Source: a virus. From it: a stretch of 36,758 bases of DNA. Under the pieces are notes generated by a model, which worked only from the letters and a program-made list of their open reading frames with translations, ran no database searches and had not been told where the DNA came from. The stretch spans positions 1-36,758 of the IMG/VR virus record IMGVR_UViG_3300035698_003651. One strand, 5' to 3'. Shown one piece after another: positions 14,977 through 29,498 of this stretch; positions within the stretch are counted from its first letter, which is position 1, and each line of letters starts with the position of its first letter. The translations under genes were made by a program, and so were the position numbers.

Positions 14977-14991
14977 AAGGCTGTGGGTTAC

Positions 14992-15079
14992 ATTACAATG
15001 ACAATTAGATAGACACAGAACCTTCGATTAGATGGGTGAAAACCCACGAAGTATTGCATTGTCTATCTAGTCATGTAAT
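14992..15079 (+). ncRNA. Long bulged stem-loop RNA, candidate cis-regulatory or noncoding RNA
   Basis: The arms 14992-15014 and 15061-15079 form 19 base pairs interrupted only by a one-base and a three-base bulge on the 5' side. Inside is a second hairpin in which 15022-15026 pairs with 15047-15051 and TGGGT pairs with ACCCA around a GAAA tetraloop. The segment GATGGG at 15031-15036 could instead pair with CCCATC at 15082-15087, just before GAGGGTTTTT. A switch between folds is therefore possible. There is no reading frame. I do not recognise a known class. Confidence 0.5.
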
Positions 15080-15106
15080 CGCCCATCTACTTGAGGGTTT
15101 TTATAT

Positions 15107-15300
15107 GGCAAGGTGGCGGAAAGGGTAGACGCTAGAAAATGCCGTAAAGCAGTGGGGAGTGTACACAATCCATTGTGTTGCGAGGGTCGTTGTGCTTATC
15201 TGACTGGATGAGGTAGCCTATAAGGATTTACTTATAGGAGTAACATAACAGGCCATTGAACTAGACCCATGCTAGGTTCGATTCCTAGCCCTTGCCACCA
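15107..15300 (+). ncRNA. tRNA-like RNA with a long insertion and encoded CCA
   Basis: GGCAAGG (15107-15113) pairs with CCTTGCC (15290-15296), followed by ACCA. A tRNA-type D-arm follows (GCG and CGC around an AAAGGGTAGA-type loop), and a T-arm with loop TTCGATT and six-base stem is at 15271-15289. The D-arm and acceptor resemble tRNA-Leu. No normal anticodon arm fits, however: about 100 extra bases intervene, with hairpins at 15163-15178 and 15217-15238, and a helix in which 15132-15143 pairs with 15251-15264. It could be an intron-bearing tRNA, a tmRNA-like molecule without a recognisable tag, or a new tRNA mimic. Confidence 0.6.
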
Positions 15301-15308
15301 ATACACTT

Positions 15309-15482
15309 ATGAAAACATTAAAGGACAAACTATGCCCATTCTGGCGAAAGAAGTGCCTCTTAAATGAGTGTGCTTTTTATATTGAATATAGAACCAAGCG
15401 AAAGAAATTCAACACCAAACTCGGTACAAGAGAGGATGTTATTGATGTGAATGGAGAGTGTCGATATTTGAGTAAGAGATAA
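15309..15482 (+). CDS. Small cysteine-rich hypothetical protein
   Basis: A 57-residue protein starting nine bases after the tRNA-like RNA: MKTLKDKLCPFWRKKC, then NECAFYIEYRTKRKK and a late GECRYLS. Four cysteines spaced CPxxxxxC-x4-C...C suggest a metal site or disulphide knot, as in many short uncharacterised phage and mobile-element proteins. The -1 frame after its stop stays open for 25 codons and ends with PEDFGCIHWEKKV, which looks protein-like, so a longer or frameshifted ancestor is possible. Confidence 0.5.
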   Translation: MKTLKDKLCPFWRKKCLLNECAFYIEYRTKRKKFNTKLGTREDVIDVNGECRYLSKR

Positions 15483-16420: not shown

Positions 16421-16783
16421 ATGACAAAATATCAAATCAAAGAACTAGATAAACTTTTAAGAGAAGCGTGCTTTGCTAGAGATGGACATAAATGCTTGAA
16501 GTGTCCAAAGACAACTACACTAGCACCATCACACATCTATCCAAAAGGTGAGTATCGCAAGATGAGATGGGACTTGGATAATGTAAAAACATTGTGTTGG
16601 AGATGTCACATGCAGTGGTGGCATAAGAACCCTATTGAAGCATGGGAATGGCTAAGGGACACACTTGAACCAGAACGCCTTGAGAGGCTCAAAATGAGGG
16701 CACAGTACATTGATCCAACTTCGTTAGACTATAATCTTATTAAATTGTATTTACAAAAGGAGATAGAAAAGTATGAAGAATAA
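16421..16783 (+). CDS. HNH endonuclease next to terminase
   Basis: A 120-residue HNH-type nuclease. A first knuckle KCLKCPKT lies near residue 25, the catalytic-type PSHIYPKG near residue 38, then RWDLDNVKTLCWRCHMQWWH, which matches the NinG-like HNH arrangement with a second CxxC. HNH proteins beside terminases are known to be required for terminase activity and packaging in several phages with cohesive ends, so a DNA-processing role in packaging is likely. It is the first gene after the multi-helix leader. Confidence 0.85.
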   Translation: MTKYQIKELDKLLREACFARDGHKCLKCPKTTTLAPSHIYPKGEYRKMRWDLDNVKTLCWRCHMQWWHKNPIEAWEWLRDTLEPERLERLKMRAQYIDPTSLDYNLIKLYLQKEIEKYEE

Positions 16784-16815: not shown

Positions 16816-17193
16816 ATGGAGAAGAATAAGGTCGGAAGACCAGAGGTGATCACAGAAGAAGTGATCCGTCAATTAGATACAGCATTTAGCTGGGGGTGTA
16901 GTGACCTCGAGGCTTGTCTTCATGCGAATATTTCTAAGACAGCGTTATATGATTACCAGAAAGATCATCCTGAATTTACGGAGCGAAAAGAGCTGTTGAA
17001 GGGTAACCCTGTACTACAGGCTAGGGCATCAGTGGTTAAGAAGATACAGTGGGACGCTGATCTAGCACTGAAGTTTCTTGAACGAAAGAAGAAGGATGAG
17101 TTTAGCTTAAAGCAAGAGGTGGCTATTGAGACTAGTGAGCCTATACGTATTCAAATAGAAAAGATTGATAATGAAAAAGATGAAACCAAGTAA
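16816..17193 (+). CDS. Terminase small subunit
   Basis: DNA-recognition subunit of the packaging motor. The 125 residues begin with VGRPEVITEEVIRQL, typical of small terminases, followed by a helix-turn-helix (CLHANISKTALYDYQKDHPE) and a helix where oligomerisation would occur (ASVVKKIQWDADLALKFLER). The C-terminal KKDEFSLKQEVAIE segment is common in this family and may contact the large subunit. It precedes the large subunit gene as usual. Confidence 0.85.
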   Translation: MEKNKVGRPEVITEEVIRQLDTAFSWGCSDLEACLHANISKTALYDYQKDHPEFTERKELLKGNPVLQARASVVKKIQWDADLALKFLERKKKDEFSLKQEVAIETSEPIRIQIEKIDNEKDETK

Positions 17194-17320
17194 AAGGATC
17201 GAACAGATAAGGTGGGAGGCTGAGGAGGTACTGGGAAAAAGAGATGTACACGAGATGTACATACAGTCAATAATCACTTATCTTGATGAATCTGATAAAA
17301 GTAAACAAGAAAATATATAA
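17171..17320 (+). CDS. Small helical protein between the terminase genes
   Basis: A 49-residue frame beginning MKKMKPSKRIEQIRWEAEEV that overlaps the last 23 bases of the small terminase and the first 35 of the large one. It covers the gap between them and reads as a basic-acidic helix pair ending YLDESDKSKQENI. Its composition looks protein-like, and without it the 90-base gap would be empty in a compact region, but no family is recognised. Confidence 0.45.
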   Translation: MKKMKPSKRIEQIRWEAEEVLGKRDVHEMYIQSIITYLDESDKSKQENI

Positions 17321-18455
17321 CTTCCTACTCGATACGAAGAAGCGTAAGAACTTCTTACTGGGTGGAGCTGGCTCTGGAAAGAGTTATGCTATCGCTCAGT
17401 TTTTAATTTTGAATAAACTATATAGCGAGAGTAATATTAGAATACTAGTTGTTAGTAAGGTTAGGCCATCGGTTAAGATTCCATATCAACTGGTGTTAGA
17501 CTTGCTGGCAGAGTACGGATTCGATTATAAGCTTAATAAGACTGATCTTGAGATTCGGAATGGCAGTAACATAATGTACTTCAAGGGATTGGATGATCCA
17601 GAGAAGATTAAATCAGCTGAGTTTAACTATATATGGTGTGAGGAGGCGACATCATTGAATATTAATGACTATCGCCAGCTCAACCTTAGAATGAGACGTA
17701 AGAATCAACATGGTATGAATCAGATGTATTTGTCGTTCAATCCGATTGATATGCAGAATTACCTGTATGAAATCGTTGAAAACCCAATGAGCGAGATGGC
17801 AGTACATAGATCGATGTATAAAGACAACGCATTCCTACAACAGGAATATATTAAAGAACTTGAAGAACTAAAGAATCAGGATGCGACCTATAACAAGATA
17901 TATGCTTTAGGTGAATGGGCTACACCGACTGATCTGATCTATACCAACTGGGATATAGTAGACAAGAAGCCAGACAAGATTGATGAGACGATCTACGGGC
18001 TGGACTTCGGATTTAATAATCCATCAGCATTAGTGAGGATCGATGTATGCGACAAGGAGCTGTATATAAGCGAGGATCTATATCAGACTGAACTTACTAA
18101 CCAAGATTTGATCGGGAGACTTGAGAGTTTAATTAAAGACAAGAAAGAGATATACGCTGACTGTGCAGAGCCTGCTAGAATTGAGGAGATAAAGCGTGCA
18201 GGGTTCAACGTGAAGGAATCTGACAAGGATGTGAATAAGGGTATAGACTCTGTGAAGACGATGAAAGTACATATTATGGACTCATCTGTCAACTTGATTA
18301 AAGAGATACGAGGATATAAATGGAAGCAGGACAAGGATAGCAATGTACTCGATGAACCCGTCAAGTTCAACGATCACCTCTTAGATGCCCTTAGATATGC
18401 GGTATATACGCATCTGGGGAAAACTAGACCTGAACCTAAATTGTTCTTCGTATAG
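17286..18455 (+). CDS. Terminase large subunit
   Basis: ATPase-nuclease of the packaging motor, Terminase_3 type. Walker A GGAGSGKS is at residues 26-33. The Walker B region is YIWCEEAT (115-122) with the acidic pair at 119-120. The RNase H-like nuclease domain begins at TIYGLDFGF (Asp240), continues with IYADCAEPA (Asp292), and ends with the conserved NDHLLDALRYAV. The 389-residue length is standard. An upstream in-frame TTG at 17283 gives one more residue, but the ATG at 17286 is the better start. A promoter follows its stop. Confidence 0.93.
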   Translation: MNLIKVNKKIYNFLLDTKKRKNFLLGGAGSGKSYAIAQFLILNKLYSESNIRILVVSKVRPSVKIPYQLVLDLLAEYGFDYKLNKTDLEIRNGSNIMYFKGLDDPEKIKSAEFNYIWCEEATSLNINDYRQLNLRMRRKNQHGMNQMYLSFNPIDMQNYLYEIVENPMSEMAVHRSMYKDNAFLQQEYIKELEELKNQDATYNKIYALGEWATPTDLIYTNWDIVDKKPDKIDETIYGLDFGFNNPSALVRIDVCDKELYISEDLYQTELTNQDLIGRLESLIKDKKEIYADCAEPARIEEIKRAGFNVKESDKDVNKGIDSVKTMKVHIMDSSVNLIKEIRGYKWKQDKDSNVLDEPVKFNDHLLDALRYAVYTHLGKTRPEPKLFFV

Positions 18456-18477: not shown

Positions 18478-18735
18478 ATGAAAAGCCTTAAACAAAAAAT
18501 TGATGGATTCCTCCAGCGAAAGACGGAGCGATTTGCTTGTAGAATAGCGATGTTAACAGCTCGCTATGTAATAGATGCTGTGTTTGGCGAGGTAGGTATG
18601 GATGAGCTAAAGCAATGCAAAGATAAGAGTTCATGTGCTAAAATATATTTGAAAACTATTGATAAAAGACTAGGCACAATTAACGAACGCTGGTATGGCT
18701 CCGGAGAAAATAAAATTAACAACAAGCTGGGATGA
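18478..18735 (+). CDS. Hypothetical helical protein
   Basis: An 85-residue protein, first gene of the island and probably translated from a leaderless transcript. It is helical and basic (LKQKIDGFLQRKTERF, then IAMLTARYVIDAVFG), with three cysteines (C21, CKDKSSC) and a final WYGSGENK. No family is recognised. The last 41 bases overlap the deacetylase gene, which suggests coupled expression. Confidence 0.55.
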   Translation: MKSLKQKIDGFLQRKTERFACRIAMLTARYVIDAVFGEVGMDELKQCKDKSSCAKIYLKTIDKRLGTINERWYGSGENKINNKLG

Positions 18736-19312
18736 TTATAGCGAGCATAACGAACGGCTCGCTTTAATGTTACTTAAATACAAGATACCTGTTATTTGGT
18801 TTATCGAATGCAACCAAAAAGAAGCATGGAATCAGATTGTAGAATACGATGGCGTAGGGTTCGAGATAGGCTCTCACACAGTCAATCATCAACTCCTGCG
18901 TCCTTGTGATAAAGAAACGCAGTGGTATGAGATCAGTGAAAGCAAGGCGATGATAGAGAATGTTATTAATAAGCCAGTTGAATGGTTCTGTTATCCGAGA
19001 GGTAGATATAGTGAGGAGACTGTAAAGATGGTGAAGAAGGCTGGTTACAAGTATGCAAGAACAACAAGTCTTGGTAAGGTGGATAAACGGAATCCACATA
19101 AACTGAAGACAACAGGTCATATATATCAGCGTAAAGAGTATAACTTCCTTGATTTCTATAGCTGGATTCAGAATCAGTTATTGAAGGGTGAAACAGACAT
19201 CCATATATGGGGTCATGCACAAGAGATCGAGAAGCATAATGATTGGGATAAGCTGAAGGATTTGTTCCAATATTTAGAGGATAATTATGACTGGGATAAG
19301 CTAAAACAATAA
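18695..19312 (+). CDS. NodB-type polysaccharide deacetylase
   Basis: Carbohydrate esterase family 4 (PF01522), which removes N- or O-acetyl groups from amino-sugar polymers. The 205 residues show motif 1 TTSWDDY with Asp13 and Asp14, motif 2 GSHTVNH with metal ligands His61 and His65, motif 3 FCYPRGRYS (98-106) and the late HIWGHA with His174. Motif 1 is a variant of the usual TFDDG, but the Asp-His-His metal triad is intact. There is no signal peptide, so it would act inside the cell, on a lipid-linked or nucleotide-linked sugar or on glycan attached to a protein, rather than on mature peptidoglycan. Confidence 0.85.
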   Translation: MAPEKIKLTTSWDDYSEHNERLALMLLKYKIPVIWFIECNQKEAWNQIVEYDGVGFEIGSHTVNHQLLRPCDKETQWYEISESKAMIENVINKPVEWFCYPRGRYSEETVKMVKKAGYKYARTTSLGKVDKRNPHKLKTTGHIYQRKEYNFLDFYSWIQNQLLKGETDIHIWGHAQEIEKHNDWDKLKDLFQYLEDNYDWDKLKQ

Positions 19313-19415
19313 CCACTCCCCCACTCCACTTGGGTCTCCCCTGTTTCTAACTTTTGGCTTATCTTAGCAAAAGTAACGGGTGAACTGAATGAGTAGGGGA
19401 GAGTAGGGGACTACC
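19313..19415 (+). promoter_or_regulatory. Structured leader before the first glycosyltransferase
   Basis: Contains a seven-base-pair hairpin ACTTTTG/CAAAAGT (19350-19374, 11-base loop) flanked on the left by C-rich blocks (CACTCCCCC and CTCCCC) and on the right by a tandem duplicate of GAGTAGGGGA (19391-19410). The second GGGGA is placed like a Shine-Dalgarno sequence eight bases before the ATG at 19416. The C-rich blocks could pair with either GGGGA copy and hide the ribosome site. Regulation of translation is inferred. Confidence 0.4.
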
Positions 19416-20276
19416 ATGAAACTATACATAGCAAACGACAGTAAGCAGACATTAGGTGGAGGCTGGACTTTCCTAGCCAACCTAGTTCAAGGACTACAAC
19501 GTGTTGATGACGTTGAGCTTTGCTATGATTACAGCGAAGCTGATACCGTTCTACTTCCTTCTTCAAGCATGGTGAACCCAGCAACAGTTGAGAAGTGTTC
19601 AAATGAGGGTAAGAAGATCTTTCTAAGGATCGATAACATGCCACGCAACAGTAGGAATCGGAACACAGGCAGTAGCAGGCTGGCACAGTACGCAAGGATA
19701 GCTGATGGTGTCATCTTCCAGTCGCAATGGGCTAAGGAGTATATAGGCTGGTGGCTAGAGAACATTGAAGACATCTCACTTAAGGGCAGAACAACAGTCA
19801 TTATAAATGGCGTTGATCTAGCAGTCTTTAACAGAAAGAATCAAGCACATAATAACAATATCTATCTTTACTCAAGATATAATAAGGACGAAACTAAGCG
19901 TTGGGAAGAGGCATGGTATCAGTTCCAAATGATATGGCGTGAGAATAGAAATGCACGATTGTGGATTGTTGGAAGATTCTCAAAAGAACAAATAGAATAT
20001 GGCTTTGACTTCTTTCAAGGTGAGAGAATTGAGTATAAGGGGACGGTCTCAAACCCTCATGAAATGTCTGGGATCTTGAAACAAGTAGGTACGCTGATTG
20101 CACCTTACTTCAACGATGCTTGCTCAAATGCAGTGTTAGAGGCTAGAGCTTGTGGGTGTAAGGTACTGACTAATACAAGCGGTGGAATGCCAGATGTGAT
20201 GGACGAGAATTTAGATATAAGTTTGGAAAGAATGACAAAAGAGTATATTATGTTTATGAATGGGGGTAAGTGGTAG
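19416..20276 (+). CDS. GT-B glycosyltransferase (GT4-like)
   Basis: A 286-residue retaining-type glycosyltransferase. The N-terminal domain starts MKLYIANDSKQTLGGGWTFL with the donor-side glycine loop. The C-terminal domain contains the conserved NDACSNAVLEARACGCKVLT, equivalent to the E-x7-E region of Glycos_transf_1, followed by TSGGMPDVM. It would transfer a sugar from a nucleotide donor to an unknown acceptor. At 286 residues it is shorter than the usual 350-400, with a compact N-terminal domain. It has one of the few Shine-Dalgarno-like leaders in the genome. Confidence 0.82.
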   Translation: MKLYIANDSKQTLGGGWTFLANLVQGLQRVDDVELCYDYSEADTVLLPSSSMVNPATVEKCSNEGKKIFLRIDNMPRNSRNRNTGSSRLAQYARIADGVIFQSQWAKEYIGWWLENIEDISLKGRTTVIINGVDLAVFNRKNQAHNNNIYLYSRYNKDETKRWEEAWYQFQMIWRENRNARLWIVGRFSKEQIEYGFDFFQGERIEYKGTVSNPHEMSGILKQVGTLIAPYFNDACSNAVLEARACGCKVLTNTSGGMPDVMDENLDISLERMTKEYIMFMNGGKW

Positions 20277-20285
20277 GGAGGGAAC

Positions 20286-20573
20286 ATGCTTACTGAAGTG
20301 CTGTTGTCGTGGCCGATGGTAGCAAGACCAGTTGGACTAGGTGGCCTGATGGTTAACCAAGAATTGGAGGAAATGCCAGTGAAGAAGCATTACGTCATCA
20401 TCGTTGTGGGTGAGAGGTTCGAGCCTCGTGCCTACAAGATTGACTGGCAGAACAACACGACCATGAGTGTGCGTGCGAAGATCGAGGTTGAATACCTCAA
20501 GGAGAGTGAAACGGGTTACGTCTTTGTCTCCGAAGGTCGAGGGTTGATCCCACTTCTGACTGTTGTCAATTAG
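20286..20573 (+). CDS. Hypothetical protein with atypical base composition
   Basis: The longest frame is 95 residues from ATG 20286. A perfect GGAGG at 20366-20370 sits eight bases before GTG 20379, so the real product may be the shorter VKKHYVIIVVGERFEPRAYK form of 64 residues, a compact beta-rich protein. The sequence is visibly richer in G and C than its neighbours and uses codons such as GTC, GTG and ATC, which suggests a recent arrival from a different genome. No family is recognised. Confidence 0.5.
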   Translation: MLTEVLLSWPMVARPVGLGGLMVNQELEEMPVKKHYVIIVVGERFEPRAYKIDWQNNTTMSVRAKIEVEYLKESETGYVFVSEGRGLIPLLTVVN

Positions 20574-20601
20574 CAAATCCACTAACCCCCTTCCCCCCTA
20601 T

Positions 20602-20991
20602 ATGGGCTATACAGCAAGACATCATTGGAAACTAGGATGGAAGCTTTATGAAACAGGTAGAGAATACTTCAATTTATGGAAGGTAGGCGAGAGTAGAGAA
20701 AAGCTTGGTTGCGATACGATAATCACTGAATATTGGAGAATGGAATTGTCGTGGTATTTCAGCTTTAAATATAAGCATATAATCTTGTGTCTCAAGAAGC
20801 CGTGGTGTTGGTACTGGAGTATAGAATTGGATGCCCCGTATCGAAAGTTAAGACAATGGATTATTGTTAAGGCCACTAATTATTGGCATAGGCGAATAGA
20901 ACCAGAACGCAAAAGAAGAGGTGATCTTGGATCGGGTCGAACTATTGCGTGGACTAAGTATGTATATTGGAAAAATTTAATCATTAACTAA
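20602..20991 (+). CDS. Hypothetical aromatic-rich protein
   Basis: A 129-residue protein from ATG 20602; an upstream TTG at 20563 would lie inside the preceding gene's end and a C-rich stretch, so it is less likely. It is exceptionally rich in Trp, Tyr, His and Arg (RHHWKLGWKLYETGREYF, then CLKKPWCWYWSIELD and YWHRRIEPERKRRG). No family or motif is recognised. The basic aromatic surface could bind nucleic acid or carbohydrate; neither is supported further. Confidence 0.5.
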   Translation: MGYTARHHWKLGWKLYETGREYFNLWKVGESREKLGCDTIITEYWRMELSWYFSFKYKHIILCLKKPWCWYWSIELDAPYRKLRQWIIVKATNYWHRRIEPERKRRGDLGSGRTIAWTKYVYWKNLIIN

Positions 20992-20996
20992 ATAAG

Positions 20997-21179
20997 ATGA
21001 TAGAAGAAAAGAAACCAGAACTTACTCCAGAGCAAAAGAAGGCTCAGGATGTAGCTAAGAAAGTAGAATCACTTGGTAAGACGCTAGGTCTTATGCGAGA
21101 GACAGTAGATAAGCCAAAGGTTTACGAAGCTATGAAGCCGTATCTCAAAGCAGAGATTGACGAGCTATTAAAAATCTAA
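20997..21179 (+). CDS. Small charged helical protein
   Basis: A 60-residue protein (MIEEKKPELTPEQKKAQDVA at the start), almost entirely charged and helical, ending KAEIDELLKI. It has no recognisable family. It shares one base with the start of the next methyltransferase gene and is preceded by an A/T-rich leader. It may be a partner or chaperone of an adjacent enzyme, by position only. Confidence 0.5.
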   Translation: MIEEKKPELTPEQKKAQDVAKKVESLGKTLGLMRETVDKPKVYEAMKPYLKAEIDELLKI

Positions 21180-21724
21180 TGTCTTACTTCAGAGAACAAC
21201 TCGAAGACTATCTATCGAAACTCACAGTCAAATGCGATGTGGTTTACGACTTCGGTGGTTCTCAAAAGCCAGTACAGGACAGGGTCAACTACTGGAAGGT
21301 TAAGGATTACAAGATATATGATCTTCCGGAGTATGACCTGAATAGGCGGTGGGCAATAGAGGATGTGAGACCAAAGTGCGATATAGCTTTCTGTTTGGAA
21401 GTTATGGAGTATATTTGGAATCCACTTATTGCCCTTCGTAATATACATGAGGCTATCAATGACAAGGGAATACTCATAATATCATTTCCTTTTATTTACC
21501 CTCATCACAACCCAGAGGGTATGGATTGTTTAAGATATACCAAATGGGGTGCGGTTACGCTACTCAAGAAGGCAGGCTTCGAGATAGACGAGGTTGAATC
21601 AAGATACGCCACAAGGGGTTCTGGAGCATTGCAGGACTTCTTTTCTTTTGAAGGTATGAAGCGATGTAAGACTTACGATGGGCATAACGAAATTGGTTAT
21701 ATGATTAAAGCTAGAAAGAAATGA
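21179..21724 (+). CDS. Class I SAM-dependent methyltransferase
   Basis: A 181-residue methyltransferase (Methyltransf_11-like). Motif I is degenerate, VVYDFGGSQKP, at about residues 20-30. The later core is clear: KCDIAFCLEVMEYIWNPL (motif around residue 70) and the post-motif strand KGILIISFPFIY, followed by LLKKAGFEI. It probably methylates a sugar or small molecule in the island's pathway; the substrate is unknown. The gene shares a base with the gene before it and overlaps the next by four. Confidence 0.78.
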   Translation: MSYFREQLEDYLSKLTVKCDVVYDFGGSQKPVQDRVNYWKVKDYKIYDLPEYDLNRRWAIEDVRPKCDIAFCLEVMEYIWNPLIALRNIHEAINDKGILIISFPFIYPHHNPEGMDCLRYTKWGAVTLLKKAGFEIDEVESRYATRGSGALQDFFSFEGMKRCKTYDGHNEIGYMIKARKK

Positions 21725-22281
21725 GACCAGCAAACTATAAAAACCAGTACATAAAGCTTCAATGTAACCAAGATCATACCCGTGAGTTGTATGAGACTAT
21801 TTCGGAGATCGCAAAAGAGAGTAACTATGTAGACGCTCTTGAAATTGGAACAGCTTGGGGTATATCAACCATCGCCATACTACACAATGGAAAGGGTGAT
21901 CTGACAAGTGTTGATAAGTCAGAATACCAAAACACAGAAAATCAAGTTATTGATTACGGGTATATGGGTCAGTGGCGATTCATGCAAAAGCCTTCAGAAG
22001 AAGCATTACCCGAACTCCTAAAGGCGGGATATAAGTATGATCTAATCTGTATTGATGGTGATCATAGATATGAATATGTCAAGAATGATCTTAAATACGC
22101 AGTAAAGATGTTAAAGAAGGACGGGGTTATTATTGTTGACGACTACAATCACAAGAAGAACAAGCAGATCGGTGGAGACAAGTACGGGGTGAAGAAGGCA
22201 GTTGATGAGATTGTGAAGCGATTAGGATTAAGCATAGAGGTTTATGATAAAGCTCATGGGATTGTAAAACTATGGAGATGA
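21721..22281 (+). CDS. Class I methyltransferase (Methyltransf_24-like)
   Basis: A 186-residue enzyme with motif I VDALEIGTAWGISTIAIL (residues 37-54), the acidic strand LTSVDKSE, then YDLICIDGDHRYEYVKNDL, which is the signature segment of Methyltransf_24 enzymes, and GVIIVDDYNH. These often modify sugars or O-antigen-like glycans. Metal-ligand type aspartates occur in DGDH and DDYNH. Stop and start overlap with neighbours on both sides, so the three genes are probably translated together. Confidence 0.83.
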   Translation: MRPANYKNQYIKLQCNQDHTRELYETISEIAKESNYVDALEIGTAWGISTIAILHNGKGDLTSVDKSEYQNTENQVIDYGYMGQWRFMQKPSEEALPELLKAGYKYDLICIDGDHRYEYVKNDLKYAVKMLKKDGVIIVDDYNHKKNKQIGGDKYGVKKAVDEIVKRLGLSIEVYDKAHGIVKLWR

Positions 22282-22820
22282 ATGCCTATGTAACGTCAAT
22301 CGGTGAGAAGACAACTGACATCTGCTGTGAACAGTTAAGGCGTTACGGGTTTAACGTTATACTACTAGATAAGAAGGAGAGCTGGGTTGATAAGTATAAG
22401 CGGTTCATTAACATGGCAGAGGGCAACTGCTTGAGGGTTGATGCAGATGTAATAGTAAACAGCAAGATAAAGATGATCCATGGCTTTCAGACAGATGATG
22501 ACTATCTACTGGTTGATTTCCACACATACGATTTCTATAAGAACGATCTATCCGTTTCAGCACCAGTCTATTACAAAGCTGAGGCGATAAAGATGATTAA
22601 AGAAAGGCTTGATGAGATTGAGGATGTTAGACCAGAGGCTACGCTGTCAAGGAAGGTTGTCGGTAGCAGGAAAGGTACTAGCGAACTGATAGTCGGTATG
22701 CATGGCTTCTTTCAAACAGAGGATCACCTGCATGAGGCTGAAGCTAACAAGATCAAGCGTGGACAAATAGAGAAGTATGGATATGACTTTAGATTAGCAG
22801 AGAAAATGCTTAAACTATGA
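22272..22820 (+). CDS. GT-A-like transferase with a DxD motif
   Basis: A 182-residue protein opening MEMNAYVTSIGEKTTDICCE, with a Rossmann-like strand NVILLDKKES and the segment CLRVDADVIVN containing DAD, the nucleotide-sugar metal motif of GT-A folds. It is shorter than complete GT-A enzymes (about 220-260) but retains the donor site. The overlap of ten bases with the upstream methyltransferase and four with the next gene indicates one operon. Confidence 0.65.
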   Translation: MEMNAYVTSIGEKTTDICCEQLRRYGFNVILLDKKESWVDKYKRFINMAEGNCLRVDADVIVNSKIKMIHGFQTDDDYLLVDFHTYDFYKNDLSVSAPVYYKAEAIKMIKERLDEIEDVRPEATLSRKVVGSRKGTSELIVGMHGFFQTEDHLHEAEANKIKRGQIEKYGYDFRLAEKMLKL

Positions 22821-23638
22821 AGATAGCAATATTCACAACTGTTACTGGGCCAGATTACTGGCAGTACGCTTGGAAGGAAGCGATAGATTGCTATGCAGAC
22901 TTCGCAGACTTCGTTGGTGTGGTATGTGGGTGTAAGGAAGACACGTCACTTGTTAAGAAGCACGGCAAGGGCAAGCCATGCTATCTGCATTGGCCTCTTG
23001 AGTGGAACTGGCAGGAGTTACCGAATCATTTAAACTATGGACTGGACTTTTGTAAGACCGAGGATAAGTTCGATTGGATTATAAAGACTGATATAGATTA
23101 CTTCTTTCATGAAGACGCATTTGATGAGCTGAAGAAACAGTTAGCTGATGCACAAGCGAATGACTACCCTGTTGCATCGTGTCTGAAGCTTAATATGATG
23201 TGTCAAGACGTAGGTCACAAGAAGACTAGAGTACCGATAGCGGTCAATGCAAAGTATGCTGATCAGATAGAGTACGGCAAGCCAAGTGATGAAGATACCG
23301 ACTGGTGTGTACCTATATGGAAGAAAGACAAGAAGGTTGTGAAGAAAGTATGGAATACTGGTGTGAATGTATACAACTATGACAGCTATTTCAGGACTAA
23401 AGACATACAAAAGGAGGCGTTCCATCGCTTTAGTAAAGCATATAAGACAAAGACAGATGGTTGGAAGTGGGGTAATACCCCCGATGTATCGATGGATCTA
23501 TGGGTTAATATGATGAAGAGTAGGCTAAAGATCACGGGCAATCACCCACGCAAGCATCCAAAGTACATTAAAGATAGGATTAACAAGCTAAAGCCCGAAG
23601 AATGGGGATATAATAACTGGGGACTATGGAAAACCTAA
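22817..23638 (+). CDS. GT-A glycosyltransferase-like protein
   Basis: A 273-residue protein with an N-terminal strand MKIAIFTTVTGPDYWQYAWK, typical of phage and bacterial GT-A enzymes. A DxD-type motif in DWIIKTDIDYFFHED lies near residue 95, with downstream acidic and aromatic residues and a basic C-terminus rich in Trp (KPEEWGYNNWGLWKT). The donor and acceptor are unknown. The 3' end overlaps the next gene by 13 bases. Confidence 0.72.
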   Translation: MKIAIFTTVTGPDYWQYAWKEAIDCYADFADFVGVVCGCKEDTSLVKKHGKGKPCYLHWPLEWNWQELPNHLNYGLDFCKTEDKFDWIIKTDIDYFFHEDAFDELKKQLADAQANDYPVASCLKLNMMCQDVGHKKTRVPIAVNAKYADQIEYGKPSDEDTDWCVPIWKKDKKVVKKVWNTGVNVYNYDSYFRTKDIQKEAFHRFSKAYKTKTDGWKWGNTPDVSMDLWVNMMKSRLKITGNHPRKHPKYIKDRINKLKPEEWGYNNWGLWKT

Positions 23639-24684
23639 ACTATTTCTACAACGATAGAAAGGACAATATTAAAGGACATTGGAGTGTTTTGATCTGGAAG
23701 CCAGAGGAGATCAATATGCTGATTGGTACTACTATACCTAAAAGGCATTGCCTTAAACTACTCCGCCAGGACACAGAGACACTTGATTCAATGATAGGCA
23801 GACTCGATTATGTAACAAGTGTTAGAGATCTGATACTCATACAGAATATCTTTGCAACACACGGATTAGCCCCAAGAGTCTATAAGACATGGGAGCTTAT
23901 ACATAAAGGAAAGAAGCGATACGCACTAGAGGTGGATTATCTTGGCAAGTACGATCCTAAGTTTAAGATAGGTGGGGTAAAGGATAGGGTAGCTGGGTTA
24001 TGTGAGCTGTATCACATCAAACCATACGAACAAGACTTAGGTGAGCCATTTAATTATGTTGGTGGTAAGTTTGTAGACTTTCATGGCTGGAAGATAGATA
24101 GAAAGAAATACAAGAAGGATCTGATAAGAAGGATCAACGACATAACCCACTTCGGTAAGTCGATGAATGGAGTAAGGGTCGCCTATCAAGGGACTGAGGA
24201 CTTCAATGGTAAGCGTAAGACTGAAGATCGATTGAGGAAGCTGGGTAAGATAGATTTTAAAGGCAAGACTGTACTAGACATCGGTTGTAACCTCGGAGTG
24301 TTCTGTATCGAGGCGATGAAGGGCGGAGCGAAGTCGGTGCGTGGCTGGGATAAACCAGAGGTGATACAGCTTGCTAAGGAATGGGCTAATTTGAATGAAC
24401 ATTGGGAGATTAGATATTATGGTACAGATATAACTACAGTAGGATGCTGCAGTGTGGTCTTTGACATCGTATTCTTCTTAGCTATGGAGGATTACCTCGG
24501 TATACCTAAGTGGCTACATGATAGCGTTGGTGATGTAATGTACTTCGAGGGTCATGACTATAGTGACAATGCTAAGTTAAGAGCAGAGCTTGAGAAGCAT
24601 TACACAATAGAGGATCTAGGATTTACAGACGATAGAGGTAAACGCATGCTATTAAAATGTACGAATGATAAGCGGAAGGCATAA
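23626..24684 (+). CDS. Two-domain protein: kinase-like N-terminus and SAM methyltransferase
   Basis: A 352-residue protein. The C-terminal half is a class I methyltransferase with motif I KTVLDIGCNLGVFCIEAM at about residues 213-230, then SVRGWDKPEVIQLAKEW and a GHDYSDNAKL region. The N-terminal half (CLKLLRQDTETLDSMIGR, then ATHGLAPRVYKTWEL and YALEVDYLGKY) resembles the N-lobe and hinge of small-molecule or LPS-type kinases, but a catalytic HxD loop is not evident. It may therefore be a binding domain. This combination would couple two modifications of one glycan. Confidence 0.7.
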   Translation: MENLNYFYNDRKDNIKGHWSVLIWKPEEINMLIGTTIPKRHCLKLLRQDTETLDSMIGRLDYVTSVRDLILIQNIFATHGLAPRVYKTWELIHKGKKRYALEVDYLGKYDPKFKIGGVKDRVAGLCELYHIKPYEQDLGEPFNYVGGKFVDFHGWKIDRKKYKKDLIRRINDITHFGKSMNGVRVAYQGTEDFNGKRKTEDRLRKLGKIDFKGKTVLDIGCNLGVFCIEAMKGGAKSVRGWDKPEVIQLAKEWANLNEHWEIRYYGTDITTVGCCSVVFDIVFFLAMEDYLGIPKWLHDSVGDVMYFEGHDYSDNAKLRAELEKHYTIEDLGFTDDRGKRMLLKCTNDKRKA

Positions 24685-25001
24685 GTGTATATTCCTACAC
24701 CCGAATAAGTGTGGTGGCAAAACAATTGAGAAACTAGTGTTTGATGTTGGATGTGAAATTGGAAGTAGCGATCACAGGTTCATTAATGAATATAGAGAGA
24801 CTTATGGAGACGAGGTTGTAGACTCGTATTTCAAGTTCATGTTCTGTCGTAATCCGTGGGACAGAATGGTATCAATGTATTTTAAAAGAGTACAGTTAAA
24901 TAATAAGAAGATGCCATCATTTAAAACCTTCTTGAAAAACGTAGATACTAACAGTTGTCTAAAAAGATGATATAGATTATTTCGGCTATAAATTTAAATA
25001 A
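24665..25001 (+). CDS. Shortened sulfotransferase, 3' end out of frame
   Basis: Residues 13-20 (PNKCGGKT) form the 5' PAPS-binding loop and CRNPWDRMVS (61-70) the 3' phosphate site of the Sulfotransfer_2 family (PF03567). Those enzymes transfer sulfate from PAPS to sugars. The frame stops at 24968-24970 after 101 residues, about half of the usual length. Skipping one A of the run 24961-24965 continues to TAA at 24999-25001 with DDIDYFGYKFK, which matches the usual end of such enzymes. The gene therefore seems to have an internal deletion plus a one-base shift; activity is doubtful. Confidence 0.72.
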
Positions 25002-25005
25002 ATAT

Positions 25006-26622
25006 ATGAACATTCTAATCACGCCAGACGTTTGGGGTTGGGCAATAGGTAATCTATGTCAGACTATTATAAAACATCAGAAGCATAGGTTTAACTTCCT
25101 AGCTTTTCCAATGCATCCGAGACAAGTACCGCTTGAGATATGTAGAATACAGAAGTATTTAGACGACGAATGGACTGATGGGCATATTGATTTATGGCAT
25201 CACCATTATTACAGAAGCTCTGAACAAGCACTTGAGTTAGAGCCAAGACTTAGAAAAATACCATCTCTGATAACGGTACACGGACACCAGAACATCAGTA
25301 AGATTGACTGGAAGTATTATGATCGGGCTACCATTGCGACAAAGTGGGGTGTTGCAGAGATAGGTAATAAAACGAAGATTCCAGTTGATCATATTCCTAA
25401 GGGTGTTGATCTTGATAGATTAGAATACATCAAAGAGCCAACAAAAGAGAAAACTGTTGGATATGTCGGAAGGGTAGTACCTTGGAAGAATCTAGCTAAG
25501 ATAGCAAAGACTTGTAAGCGGTTGGGCTACAAGGTGGTTGGATCAGGTTATGTAGATAAGCCTAGATACTGGCAGGATGAGGTTGATAAATCAGTGGTAG
25601 ATTTCAATGGCGGAGTAGGTCGTGGTAAAGAGCCATCAATGCATGATAAGGACAGGCTATATGAAGATATGGCTGTATTTGTCATGTACTCCACAGGGGA
25701 AAGAGAGACTGGTACGATACCGTTACTTGAAGCAATGGCAAGGGGAGTTCCAGTCATGGCTACTGAACAGGGAATGGCGAGGGACTTAATAGAGGACGGA
25801 AAGAATGGGGTGGTCTTCAATGAAGACAACTTCGAGCAGAAACTCAAAGAATTAATGGAGAACGAAGATTTGAAAAAGAAATACAGAGAAGCGGCAAGGA
25901 AAACAGTCATTAAGTACAACGAAAAGAGATATGCAAGAGAAATGGCTAAGAGTATTTATAAGACACTATATCCGGAGAACCACATGGTCTCGGTTGTCAT
26001 TCCTACGTTTGAAAGATCAGAGAAATTGATCGATATTATTATCTCAATAGACGAACAGGACTATCCTGCAAAGGAAATAATTGTTGTAGATGACAACTCA
26101 CAGGACAATCAGATGACAAGACTGGCATGTAAGAAATTACGCATGAAATTGCGTACTCCCATAATATACATAAATACTAAGCAAATAGGCTATAATCTCG
26201 CTCTAGCACGCAATTTGGGGGCGATAGAGGCATTAGGTGAGCAACTAGTGTTCCTTGATGATAGGTATAAGATGACTAAAGGGTCGCTTACGGAGATCGC
26301 TAAATGTCATGGTAAAGAGAAACTCTGGCACTGGGGGAGAAAGATAGTGAAGGGTAAGGAGATTATAAAGAAAGGATTTGTCGAAAACTTTAGCTGGGTG
26401 AGCCGTAATCAATTCATGTACTTCGGTATGTTCAATGAACGGATGAAGTTTTATGGCGGTATATCGCAAGATGTAAGAGAAAGGTGGGCTAAGTTTGGTG
26501 GCGACTTCAACTGCGTTCCCGAAGCTAAGGTAGAACAGGTGGTATCGTCATGGAGTAAGTGGAATAAACTAGACGAGATATGGAAAGCTAAAGAATTACT
26601 TAGACAAATGTACGGTGAATAA
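25006..26622 (+). CDS. Bifunctional GT4-GT2 glycosyltransferase
   Basis: A 538-residue fusion. Residues 1 to about 320 form a GT-B enzyme (VDHIPKGVDLDRL, TVGYVGRVVPWKNLAKIAKT, and GTIPLLEAMARGVPVMATEQ as the E-x7-E region). Residues 325 to the end form a GT2 domain (MVSVVIPTFERSEKLIDIII, EIIVVDDNSQD as nucleotide site, LVFLDDRYKM as DxD equivalent). Two transfers by one chain would build a disaccharide. GT4-GT2 fusions occur in bacterial glycan loci. It uses the AAATAAATATATG leader. Confidence 0.85.
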   Translation: MNILITPDVWGWAIGNLCQTIIKHQKHRFNFLAFPMHPRQVPLEICRIQKYLDDEWTDGHIDLWHHHYYRSSEQALELEPRLRKIPSLITVHGHQNISKIDWKYYDRATIATKWGVAEIGNKTKIPVDHIPKGVDLDRLEYIKEPTKEKTVGYVGRVVPWKNLAKIAKTCKRLGYKVVGSGYVDKPRYWQDEVDKSVVDFNGGVGRGKEPSMHDKDRLYEDMAVFVMYSTGERETGTIPLLEAMARGVPVMATEQGMARDLIEDGKNGVVFNEDNFEQKLKELMENEDLKKKYREAARKTVIKYNEKRYAREMAKSIYKTLYPENHMVSVVIPTFERSEKLIDIIISIDEQDYPAKEIIVVDDNSQDNQMTRLACKKLRMKLRTPIIYINTKQIGYNLALARNLGAIEALGEQLVFLDDRYKMTKGSLTEIAKCHGKEKLWHWGRKIVKGKEIIKKGFVENFSWVSRNQFMYFGMFNERMKFYGGISQDVRERWAKFGGDFNCVPEAKVEQVVSSWSKWNKLDEIWKAKELLRQMYGE

Positions 26623-27112
26623 ACCTGACGGGAAAGACCTAGACAATCCGATGATGTTGACACGAGAGATCGAGGCGATTGATAAGATCATTGCTGAAAC
26701 TAAACCTCAGATCTGTTTGGAGTTTGGTGCTGGTGGATCGACAGTCTACTTCCCAAAGAAACACGATTGTATAAAACAATGGCTGTCAATCGAGGAGAAT
26801 GGTCGATATGCTAAGGCTCTTGGTGAAAAGGTGGACAAGGAAAAGGTAGCACTTATATGGGCATCGGATCAGTCAGCATGGTTTAGTGATTCAGTCAAGT
26901 ACCAGCCAAAACGTTACGGTTTAATACTAGTTGATGGATTACAGAGAGGTGCGTGCTTACGGGCTGGCAGGGAGCTATTGAAAGATGGCGGGGTCATGTT
27001 ACTTCACGACTTTGATAGGGATATGTATAAAGAGGACTTAAAAGAGTTCAAGGTACATCCATTATGTGAGAAGGATAAGAGCGGTAGTAGAGGTCTAGCA
27101 ATCATTAAATAA
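26615..27112 (+). CDS. Class I methyltransferase-like protein
   Basis: A 165-residue enzyme. Motif I is ICLEFGAGGSTVYFP at about residues 32-46, followed by WLSIEENGRYAKAL, then RYGLILVDGLQRGACLRAG and GGVMLLHDFDRD. The pattern resembles small sugar or polysaccharide O-methyltransferases. The start is GTG at 26615, overlapping the fusion gene by eight bases; an ATG at 26651 is the alternative and would still keep the whole core. Confidence 0.72.
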   Translation: MNKPDGKDLDNPMMLTREIEAIDKIIAETKPQICLEFGAGGSTVYFPKKHDCIKQWLSIEENGRYAKALGEKVDKEKVALIWASDQSAWFSDSVKYQPKRYGLILVDGLQRGACLRAGRELLKDGGVMLLHDFDRDMYKEDLKEFKVHPLCEKDKSGSRGLAIIK

Positions 27113-27116
27113 ATAT

Positions 27117-27395
27117 ATGAAAAGTCCAATCAGTAGCTTTGAGGGAACGGCTATATTCCCGCCTTGGCAGGTAAAAGAGATTTTATGTGAGAACGGGCTG
27201 GCTAAGAGTAAGAGCGAAGCCCAAAGATTCCTCGAACAGAAAGGCGTTTATATTGATGGCGAGCAGGTTGATCACGAAACAGCATTATGTCTCGATGCAG
27301 AGAAGTTAAAGAAGGGCGTGGTAATTAGATGTGGCAAGTGGCATCACAAACGATTTATAACATTAAGCGTAAAGAAATGGAAAAAAGAAAGCTAA
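27117..27395 (+). CDS. Stand-alone S4 RNA-binding domain protein
   Basis: A 92-residue protein whose core, LAKSKSEAQRFLEQKGVYID, then GEQVDHETAL and the closing VVIRCGKWHHKRF, matches the S4 domain, particularly the C-terminal S4 of tyrosyl-tRNA synthetases (PF01479 type). S4 domains bind structured RNA. It is odd to find one between glycosyltransferase genes; a link with the genome's own tRNA-like RNA is a tempting but untested idea. The start has the AAATAAATATATG leader. Confidence 0.75.
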   Translation: MKSPISSFEGTAIFPPWQVKEILCENGLAKSKSEAQRFLEQKGVYIDGEQVDHETALCLDAEKLKKGVVIRCGKWHHKRFITLSVKKWKKES

Positions 27396-28396
27396 AGATC
27401 GTAGGTACAACTTGGCACGTCATGCATCAGACCAGAATATTCGATGCCCTGAAAGATGACGCAGACTTCTATTTGATACATAACTCTTGGCGTAGTTGGC
27501 AAAGAAAAGAGTTTCAAGATGCTAGACCATTGCCTGAGAATGTGAAGTTTGTCAGTGCGTATGAGCCTGGCAAGTATGATTTTGCTATTCTTCATATAGA
27601 TCAGCAGGCTGTAAATACATCTATACATAAGGGGCAGATTTATAGGGAGTTCAACAATACTATTCAGGACATTCCAAAGGTTGTTATAAATCATGGTTCA
27701 CCCGTATATCCAGAGTACTGTAAGGAAGTGGGGATGACCGATAAGGAAGCAGAGAGTATCGTAAGGGCTGACATTAGGTCAATGGTCAAGGGTAATAAAA
27801 TGGTAGTTAACTCACATAAAGCTGCAGAGATGTGGGGGTGGGGCTATCCAATCGTTCACGGAATGAAAACGGATCAGTTCTACGATCTACCCAAACACCC
27901 ACGAGTATTCACTGCCCTATCCCCTGGTGGACTAGATGATTATTACAACCGCCACACAATGAATAAGGTAATGAATATACTCGATCAAGAATACGGCAGA
28001 ACGGCATTGTGGGCTAAAATAAACTGTAATCAAGGTGGTGACTTCGAGAATTACAAGAATATAATGGGATCAAGCTTACTCTATCTTGACACGTCAATCA
28101 AAACTCCAATGAACTCAGCTAGAACAGAAGCTATGCTGTCTGGTTGTTGTGTAGTTCAGGTAGAAGGTGCTCACGATCTTGAGAGATTTGCTAAAGACGG
28201 TGAGAATATGGTACTTGTCAAGAACGATCCCGAAAGTATTGCATCTGTGTGTATGGATCTAATGGGTGAGAGATATGAGGAAGCTGTAAAGATCGGACAG
28301 GCTGGAAAGAAGATGGCACAGGAGAGATTCTGCCCTGAGAAGCTAAGAGAACAATGGCTTGCGTTTATTAAAGATGAATTAAAACTAAATGTATGA
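27377..28396 (+). CDS. GT-B glycosyltransferase-like protein
   Basis: A 339-residue protein from ATG 27377 (MEKRKLKIVGTTWHVMHQTR); an earlier ATG at 27329 lies well inside the S4 gene and is less likely. The C-terminal half has MNSARTEAMLSGCCVVQVE, an E-containing donor motif like that of GT4-type enzymes, and an ERFAKDGENMVLV turn. The N-terminal half includes the acceptor-like VVINHGSPVYPEYC. The overlap with the S4 gene is 19 bases and with the next gene four. Confidence 0.75.
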   Translation: MEKRKLKIVGTTWHVMHQTRIFDALKDDADFYLIHNSWRSWQRKEFQDARPLPENVKFVSAYEPGKYDFAILHIDQQAVNTSIHKGQIYREFNNTIQDIPKVVINHGSPVYPEYCKEVGMTDKEAESIVRADIRSMVKGNKMVVNSHKAAEMWGWGYPIVHGMKTDQFYDLPKHPRVFTALSPGGLDDYYNRHTMNKVMNILDQEYGRTALWAKINCNQGGDFENYKNIMGSSLLYLDTSIKTPMNSARTEAMLSGCCVVQVEGAHDLERFAKDGENMVLVKNDPESIASVCMDLMGERYEEAVKIGQAGKKMAQERFCPEKLREQWLAFIKDELKLNV

Positions 28397-29268
28397 ACGT
28401 TAAAATCATTCCATTCGACAAGTTTCACGGGAGGACTCACGGCACAATAGGATCGTCTATACTGCGTGCTTATTGGCTCGCTGACAAATGGGACGAAGCT
28501 AGTATTTGGAATCAAGGAGAAGACGCTGATGTATTTATTCTTCAAAAGGTCTACTGGTACGAATGGATGAAGGACTGCAAGAAGCCAATCATCCTTGATC
28601 TTTGCGACCCAGATCATTGGAAGTATGACAAAAATCTTGATCGAGAAGAACTGAAGGTAGCGGAACTAGATGGATTAGTTGATGCGATAACTTGTTCATC
28701 AGAAGCATTGACCAAAGAGATAAAGAAATATGTAAAGAAAATCCCAGTTATAACAATTGAGGATAGGGTCAATCTTAATCTTATTCCAAAGCCTAAAAAG
28801 CATACAGAGCAGGCAGAATGGGTGGTATGGTTTGGTTATTCTGGTAATGCAAGAGAGATATTTAAACATAGGCATATTGTAGACTCCATTGCAAAGTCTA
28901 ACTTAAACCTAAAGATTATATCAGAGTCTAGGTTCACGCTACAGGATGACTTTGCGTGTGAGATAGAGAATATTGACTTTGATTGGGATAACTTTGCTTA
29001 TCAGCTACAAGAAGCTGATATGGTTGTTAATCCTAAGCTCCCAACTAAGCAATTCCAGTTTAAATCTAATAACAAAACATATATCTCGTGGGCTCACGGA
29101 CTTCCTGTAGCCAATAGCGGTGATGACATGAGACGACTTCTTGATCCAGTGGAACGACAGAAAGAAGCGGACGAGAAATACGAACTCGTGAAGAAAGAAC
29201 ATATTATAGAGAAGTCGATAGAACAATATAAACAGTTAATTAAAGAAATATGCGGAAAGCAGAAATGA
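28393..29268 (+). CDS. GT-B-fold protein, probable glycosyltransferase
   Basis: A 291-residue protein: IIPFDKFHGRTHGTIGSSIL at the start, PIILDLCDPDHWKYDKN as a phage GT-B-like segment, AITCSSEALTKEIKKYVKKI (typical of the first-domain end in GT-B enzymes), WVVWFGYSGNAREIFKHR at the second-domain start, and ISWAHGLPVANSGDDM near the donor site. The canonical E-x7-E is not clear, so activity could be lost or atypical. It ends the island and overlaps the next small gene by four bases. Confidence 0.68.
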   Translation: MNVKIIPFDKFHGRTHGTIGSSILRAYWLADKWDEASIWNQGEDADVFILQKVYWYEWMKDCKKPIILDLCDPDHWKYDKNLDREELKVAELDGLVDAITCSSEALTKEIKKYVKKIPVITIEDRVNLNLIPKPKKHTEQAEWVVWFGYSGNAREIFKHRHIVDSIAKSNLNLKIISESRFTLQDDFACEIENIDFDWDNFAYQLQEADMVVNPKLPTKQFQFKSNNKTYISWAHGLPVANSGDDMRRLLDPVERQKEADEKYELVKKEHIIEKSIEQYKQLIKEICGKQK

Positions 29269-29447: not shown

Positions 29448-29488
29448 CCGAAAACGGAGAGGAAACGTATGTTTTTCTCCGTTTTTTT
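29448..29488 (+). promoter_or_regulatory. Attenuator-like double hairpin, copy B
   Basis: A mini-hairpin CCG-AAAA-CGG (29448-29457) shares its right arm with the foot of a longer hairpin. In the longer hairpin, 29455-29466 pairs with 29471-29481 over 11 pairs with one bulge around the tetraloop GTAT (29467-29470), followed by seven T (29482-29488). Layout, loop sequence, bulge and T-tract are the same as at 204-244, although the stem sequences differ. This compensatory difference argues that the structure, not the sequence, is conserved. Confidence 0.62.
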
Positions 29489-29498
29489 AATCAAAATT

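Follow-up and report, generated by a model that had tools for sequence, protein, structure and literature searches.

A candidate family of phage RNAs with an exchangeable head on a tRNA-Leu-like frame

The window, the whole 36.8-kb stretch analysed here, is an IMG/VR phage record encoding a tape measure, a portal, a major head protein and a terminase of siphovirus type, and it carries at 15107–15300 a tRNA-like element. This element is probably best explained as belonging to a phage RNA family in which a tRNA-Leu-like chassis bears an exchanged structured head. We are highly confident that an RNA family of this identity exists outside all databases and programs tested, and confident that the window belongs to it. 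The strongest proof that the element is real is comparative, as hundreds of phages carry this frame and their acceptors show compensatory changes.

The element in the window

The original prediction of a 194-nt tRNA-like RNA at 15107–15300 is confirmed: the acceptor stem is complete, the D-arm is of the tRNA-Leu type, and both a T-arm and, as had been claimed, an encoded CCA (as ACCA) are present. The parts of the element are as follows.

15107–15113, + strand: acceptor 5' strand GGCAAGG (sequence; family covariation)
15116–15132, + strand: D-arm GCG-GAAAGGGTAGA-CGC of the bacterial tRNA-Leu type (sequence, shuffles, relatives)
15133–15270, + strand: variable head in the place of the anticodon arm, 138 nt (sequence)
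15143–15182, + strand: predicted hairpin CGUAA...UUGCG within the insert (energy model only)
15184–15188, + strand: 5' strand of helix P (S2), GGGTC (helix searches of the insert)
15218–15238, + strand: perfect 8-bp hairpin CCTATAAG/CTTATAGG within the insert (folding)
15264–15270, + strand: 3' strand of helix P, GACCC, then the family AU, abutting the T-stem (helix searches)
15271–15289, + strand: T-arm with 6-bp stem GCTAGG/CCTAGC and loop TTCGATT (sequence)
15290–15300, + strand: acceptor 3' strand CCTTGCC followed by ACCA at 15297–15300 (sequence)

All seven acceptor pairs (15107–15113 with 15290–15296) and all three D-stem pairs (15116–15118 with 15130–15132) are formed, and the D-loop is that of bacterial tRNA-Leu. 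While the acceptor, D and T arms of a canonical tRNA are all present, its anticodon arm (5-bp stem, 7-nt loop) is missing and an insert stands instead. Where about 100 bases had been proposed to replace this arm, 138 nt separate the D-stem from the T-stem, an excess of about 105 over a genuine tRNA-Leu. The proposed six-pair T-stem is likewise found (15271–15276 with 15284–15289, 6/6, loop UUCGAUU), so that acceptor and T-stem add up to 13 bp rather than the canonical 12, in the window as in the family. Helix P ends right at the AU, a family feature, with CCCAT preceding the T-stem; for the crossing helix S1 the window offers several competing candidates, none of them backed by relatives.

Dinucleotide shuffling of the window (200 shuffles, one strand) readily yields a bare acceptor-plus-T-arm frame, which turned up 155 times. 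Not one shuffle contained the D-arm core, alone or within the frame, and of the T-loop...CCA motif the window has one copy where 0.00 are expected. Folding gave the element an MFE z of −3.3; its global MFE structure does not contain the tRNA frame, which costs 3.2 kcal/mol to impose. At the element in the window, ARAGORN returned no match in tRNA, tmRNA or intron (-i0,3000) mode, and the random-looking anticodons obtained with a lowered threshold overlapped only parts of it and were discarded. Neither Rfam 15, at gathering and relaxed thresholds, nor group I and group II intron models placed a family on it. An exact T-arm search for relatives of the window found none, and searches via terminase and portal led to distant TerL homologues only, none with tRNAs. 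Compared with the phage's own genome as a possible antisense or copy, the insert showed no long complementarity and did no better than shuffles.

Relatives, covariation and the exchanged head

A pattern combining a tRNA-Leu D-arm with a distant T-arm was run on viral contigs, and in the matching phage contigs the acceptor strand next to the D-arm has its pairing partner 3' of a T-arm that lies too far off. Most window-like matches share three features that the pattern did not request, namely a T-stem of 6 bp, an AU just ahead of that stem and a T-loop usually reading UGCAAAU. With one member as the query, BLAST returned matches, mostly unannotated, in Lactobacillus phage phiJL-1, Leuconostoc phages Ln-9 and LN34, Listeria phages B054 and LmoS_188, Bacillus phage phi3T, the thermophile phage D6E and others, and further searches added Listeria PSA and LP-101 and Enterococcus EH-TP1. 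Pattern scans of viral contigs, run for two classes of insert length, gave at least 120 matches per class. GTDB genomes contributed 48 matches, mostly from Lactobacillales, Bacillales and Clostridia, and the exact pattern was matched in 12 of 301 Lactobacillaceae genomes. The host phages are mostly those of Firmicutes. No description of the family was found in the literature, which was covered only in part, and an earlier mention is possible.

The parsed family comprises at least 293 distinct members from viral contigs, isolated phages and Firmicute prophages; the 7-bp acceptor, with 161 sequences, is 98% paired. Among these 293, the insert ranges from 23 to 246 nt (median 65) and ends in AU in 288, the discriminator base is A in 154, T in 83, C in 34 and G in 22, and CCA is encoded in 4. 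Since members were found via D-arm and T-loop anchors, the conservation of these letters is partly by construction, and the evidence consists of the pattern together with pairing tests. The window has the 7-bp acceptor, the tRNA-Leu D-arm and the 6-bp T-stem preceded by AU that characterise the family, while its UUCGAUU T-loop, long insert and encoded ACCA are all atypical of the family mode. It is bridged to that mode by EH-TP1, with the same T-loop, and D6E, with a 120-nt insert, in both of which its AAAGGG D-loop recurs. A second set of frames (acceptor AGTCAGG, 5-bp T-stem, insert of 36–146 nt; contigs L016, L023, L085 and others) was regarded as a separate family and not included; it also covers L021, L043, L053, L059 and L093, sometimes with two elements per contig that differ in insert, and related frames with a nested T-arm occur in L014, L059 and L095. 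Two tRNA-like elements on one contig stretch, usually with unlike heads, were seen in L052, L120, L156, L160, L197, L210, L279, L355 and others.

In the pairing test, sequences were chosen by their D-arm and T-loop letters alone and the seven bases flanking the frame were compared. Across 95 different acceptors, 97.7% of the acceptor cells were paired, against 32–44% when slid by 1–3 bases and 53% with permuted partners, and pair counting gave an acceptor covariation of 0.673 against 0.156 when shuffled. Compensated changes are also seen in the D-stem, with GAG/CTC in LN34 and ACG/CGT in PSA. This comparison of sequences shows that selection acts on the acceptor, D and T frame as an RNA fold.

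No sequence motif common to all heads was found across the family inserts. Ahead of the AU, the last bases of the insert take part in a helix some 7 bp long that is stronger than in shuffles and whose partner strand typically starts 10–15 nt 3' of the D-stem, and the linker between the D-stem and this helix pairs with the helix loop above the level of shuffles (p about 6e-6), mostly starting 3–4 nt past the D-stem. Four inserts from Listeria and Enterococcus phages can be aligned; in these, compensatory changes affect 8 of 14 pairs, and the pairs so compensated make up two crossing helices and one inner hairpin. The same helix crossing is backed in at least two other insert groups. Where it can be aligned, the insert is thus an H-type pseudoknot, as it apparently is in most relatives. 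Given the missing common motif and the absence of long self-genome complementarity of the window insert, no target is suggested.

Heads are also swapped as units. In 27 of 107 pairs (not all mutually independent) in which both 60-nt flanks are at least 85% identical, the inserts are less than 65% identical, and these swaps fall in several separate acceptor lineages. Leuconostoc phage Ln-9, for example, has flanks 94–99% identical to those of six relatives and the same acceptor, while the inserts share 45% identity and are unrelated sequences of 73 and 44 nt. Identical heads are found on differing acceptors as well. These exchanges point to a tRNA chassis that stays constant while its head is swapped, although heads might also be traded without selection for diversity, by recombination at the D and T arms, which are conserved.

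Genomic setting

Downstream of the element the window encodes three genes of the packaging region.

16421–16783, + strand: HNH endonuclease, a family-typical neighbour (phrog_144)
16816–17193, + strand: terminase small subunit, TerS (phrog_4102)
17283–18455, + strand: terminase large subunit, TerL (phrog_3717 / phrog_2)

They lie 1.1–2 kb from the element and on its strand, as is usual for the family, where HNH, TerS, TerL and portal follow downstream in the same orientation (TerL agrees in strand with the element in 36/36) and, where neighbours are recognised, a RinA/ArpU-type late activator (phrog_36/248) lies 0.2–0.3 kb upstream. The annotated phages with a matching locus are PSA, LP-101, PK3.5, H1-Guo and EH-TP1; no late activator was identified upstream of the window element. 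Other members are placed differently: the phi3T element sits away from the packaging genes, between yonN and yonK, some members lie inside tRNA clusters, and the phiJL-1 element reaches to within a few bases of the record end, those of Leuconostoc phages to about 100–150 bp from it. Promoters are not enriched upstream of the elements, so that the element may be only part of longer transcripts, and a terminator follows it in 29/154 cases compared with 7/258 in the control.

In Listeria phages (L295, L289, L296, L298) rliG/rli62 (RF02415, RF01486) lies just upstream and mcrA RNA (RF03010) just downstream of the element; these share the intergenic locus and are different RNAs. Listeria phage A118 keeps rliG and lacks the tRNA-like element, which makes the element accessory rather than generally absent; its absence from relatives with conserved neighbours, named in the original prediction as a refutation, thus counts against it only mildly. 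In strain EGD-e, both rliG and rli62 were reported as sRNAs carried by prophage A118 (PMC3556495), and secreted RNA was reported to be enriched in rliG (PMC6786865). These reports show only that transcription of the locus occurs in a related phage.

Several further observations concern the surroundings of these elements. In the window, a long and highly stable hairpin at 14990–15082 (−30.5 kcal/mol, z −6.3) stands just 5' of the element and is possibly a second RNA of the locus, like rliG/rli62 in Listeria phages, and a small cysteine-rich reading frame of about 58 aa follows at 15310–15482, roughly 10 bases past the ACCA. Between TerL and portal, an odd place in a siphovirus, 18695–29268 holds about 11 kb of glycosyltransferase- and methyltransferase-like genes, and the portal protein of 780 aa (29469–31811) carries in its C-terminal half a fused head-morphogenesis domain. 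Elsewhere, a DUF3800-VIII RNA occurs nearby in phi3T (L112) and ROOL and drum RNAs in L077, and one element is carried by a phage-plasmid, Bacillus paralicheniformis plasmid p1 (L288), where HNH and TerS genes follow downstream and a gene for an RNA ligase lies roughly 3 kb away.

Relation to known RNAs and possible functions

The family shares with bacterial tRNA-Leu the D-arm (TGGCGGAA..GGTAGACGC), the acceptor, the T-arm and the elbow bases, and differs from it in the lost anticodon arm, the 6-bp T-stem with its 13-bp stack, the mostly UGCAAAU T-loop, the pseudoknot head and the varying discriminator and CCA. Because the latter two vary, the members are unlikely to decode as tRNAs or, taken as a family, to be charged, while processing is likely. 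LeuRS requires A73. The idea of a tRNA mimic survives in kind, the acceptor/D/T frame being selected as RNA, whereas across the family the RNAs are unlikely to be recognised by LeuRS or to depend on a CCA in the gene. An intron-containing tRNA, also raised originally, does not fit: ARAGORN in intron mode found nothing in the window and 1/174 relatives (default tRNA mode, 0/174), group I and II models did not match, the inserts of relatives go down to 23 nt and no anticodon stem can be re-formed. That the window holds a decayed or intron-bearing tRNA-Leu gene of one phage, as its tRNA-Leu-type D-arm and ACCA might suggest, is very improbable given that hundreds of relatives share its non-tRNA layout and its 6-bp T-stem, and as a general account it is refuted by the family covariation.

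With tmRNA (ssrA) the family has in common a tRNA-like end domain and one or more pseudoknots replacing the anticodon arm. The proposal of a tmRNA-like molecule nevertheless finds no support, since the 3-bp D-stem is intact, most members measure about 90–120 nt, no tag or conserved reading frame is seen, and neither ARAGORN in tmRNA mode (-m, 0/174 relatives) nor the Rfam tmRNA models at gathering detect them. Bacterial Y RNA (YrlA) is a small RNA with a tRNA-mimic module; the family, compared with it via the Rfam scan alone, has its free ends at the acceptor stem. The tRNA-like structure of the TYMV type has a pseudoknot, and mascRNA is a tRNA-like processing signal, but the former has its pseudoknot in the acceptor arm, the latter has none, and both come from eukaryote hosts.

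The leading rival holds that the frame only signals RNase P and RNase Z to split middle and late transcripts, comparable to mascRNA or mitochondrial tRNA punctuation, while the anticodon region drifts. For RNase P and RNase Z, the acceptor/T stack and the elbow are the main requirements, and the conserved parts of the family are those read by these enzymes, whereas acceptor sequence, discriminator and CCA are free to vary; the same-strand position at a transcript boundary and the lack of upstream promoter enrichment agree with such a mark. Nevertheless, we regard it as rather unlikely, as inserts retain covarying crossing helices and are replaced as whole units in near-identical flanks, unlike drift, the D-arm is unnecessary for processing, members such as that of phi3T and those in tRNA clusters lie elsewhere, and a terminator already follows 29 of 154 elements.

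Two further explanations appear distinctly improbable, each to about the same degree. An RNA encoded near packaging genes is known from phi29, whose structured pRNA lacks a tRNA frame, unlike the family, and a role in DNA packaging or in the choice of DNA ends would account for a site beside cos or terminase: the element lies upstream of HNH-TerS-TerL and close to the record ends in phiJL-1 and the Leuconostoc phages. Such a role is at odds with its absence from A118 despite the conserved rliG upstream and with the distant phi3T copy, and it provides no reason for whole-head swaps between phages with the same flanks. The D and T arms could instead be homology handles by which early and late genome halves are traded, the RNA itself doing little, and many pairs indeed share one flank only and break at the element. 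Exchange with both flanks kept in several lineages speaks against this, and acceptor and pseudoknot have changed in a strongly compensatory way, which requires the RNA to be under selection.

The favoured reading of a tRNA-Leu-like chassis with an exchanged head would work as follows. The chassis would consist of the acceptor, D-arm, elbow and 13-bp acceptor-plus-T helix, with the anticodon arm swapped for an independently exchanged head. Host RNase P and RNase Z would excise the RNA from its transcript in the fashion of a tRNA, the tRNA fold would stabilise the mature RNA, and this RNA would then work in trans via its head, for which we see an even chance. Since heads are exchanged, their target might be under conflict, be it a host defence factor, a takeover factor or a rival phage. 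A role against host or rival is a tentative suggestion, and so is the idea of a plug-in slot, in which traded pseudoknot heads would inhibit or decoy host or rival factors and form a modular system of counter-defence or takeover that rides on host tRNA maturation.

If the favoured reading is true, a common class of phage RNAs has been overlooked, because tRNA finders reject its members and no Rfam model covers them, a tRNA body can carry exchangeable structured heads, and the natural head swaps would be directly testable in the isolated phages phi3T, Ln-9/LN34 and PSA. Even under the more modest reading as a processing signal, the family would represent a new use of host tRNA enzymes by phages at the boundary between middle and late transcripts.
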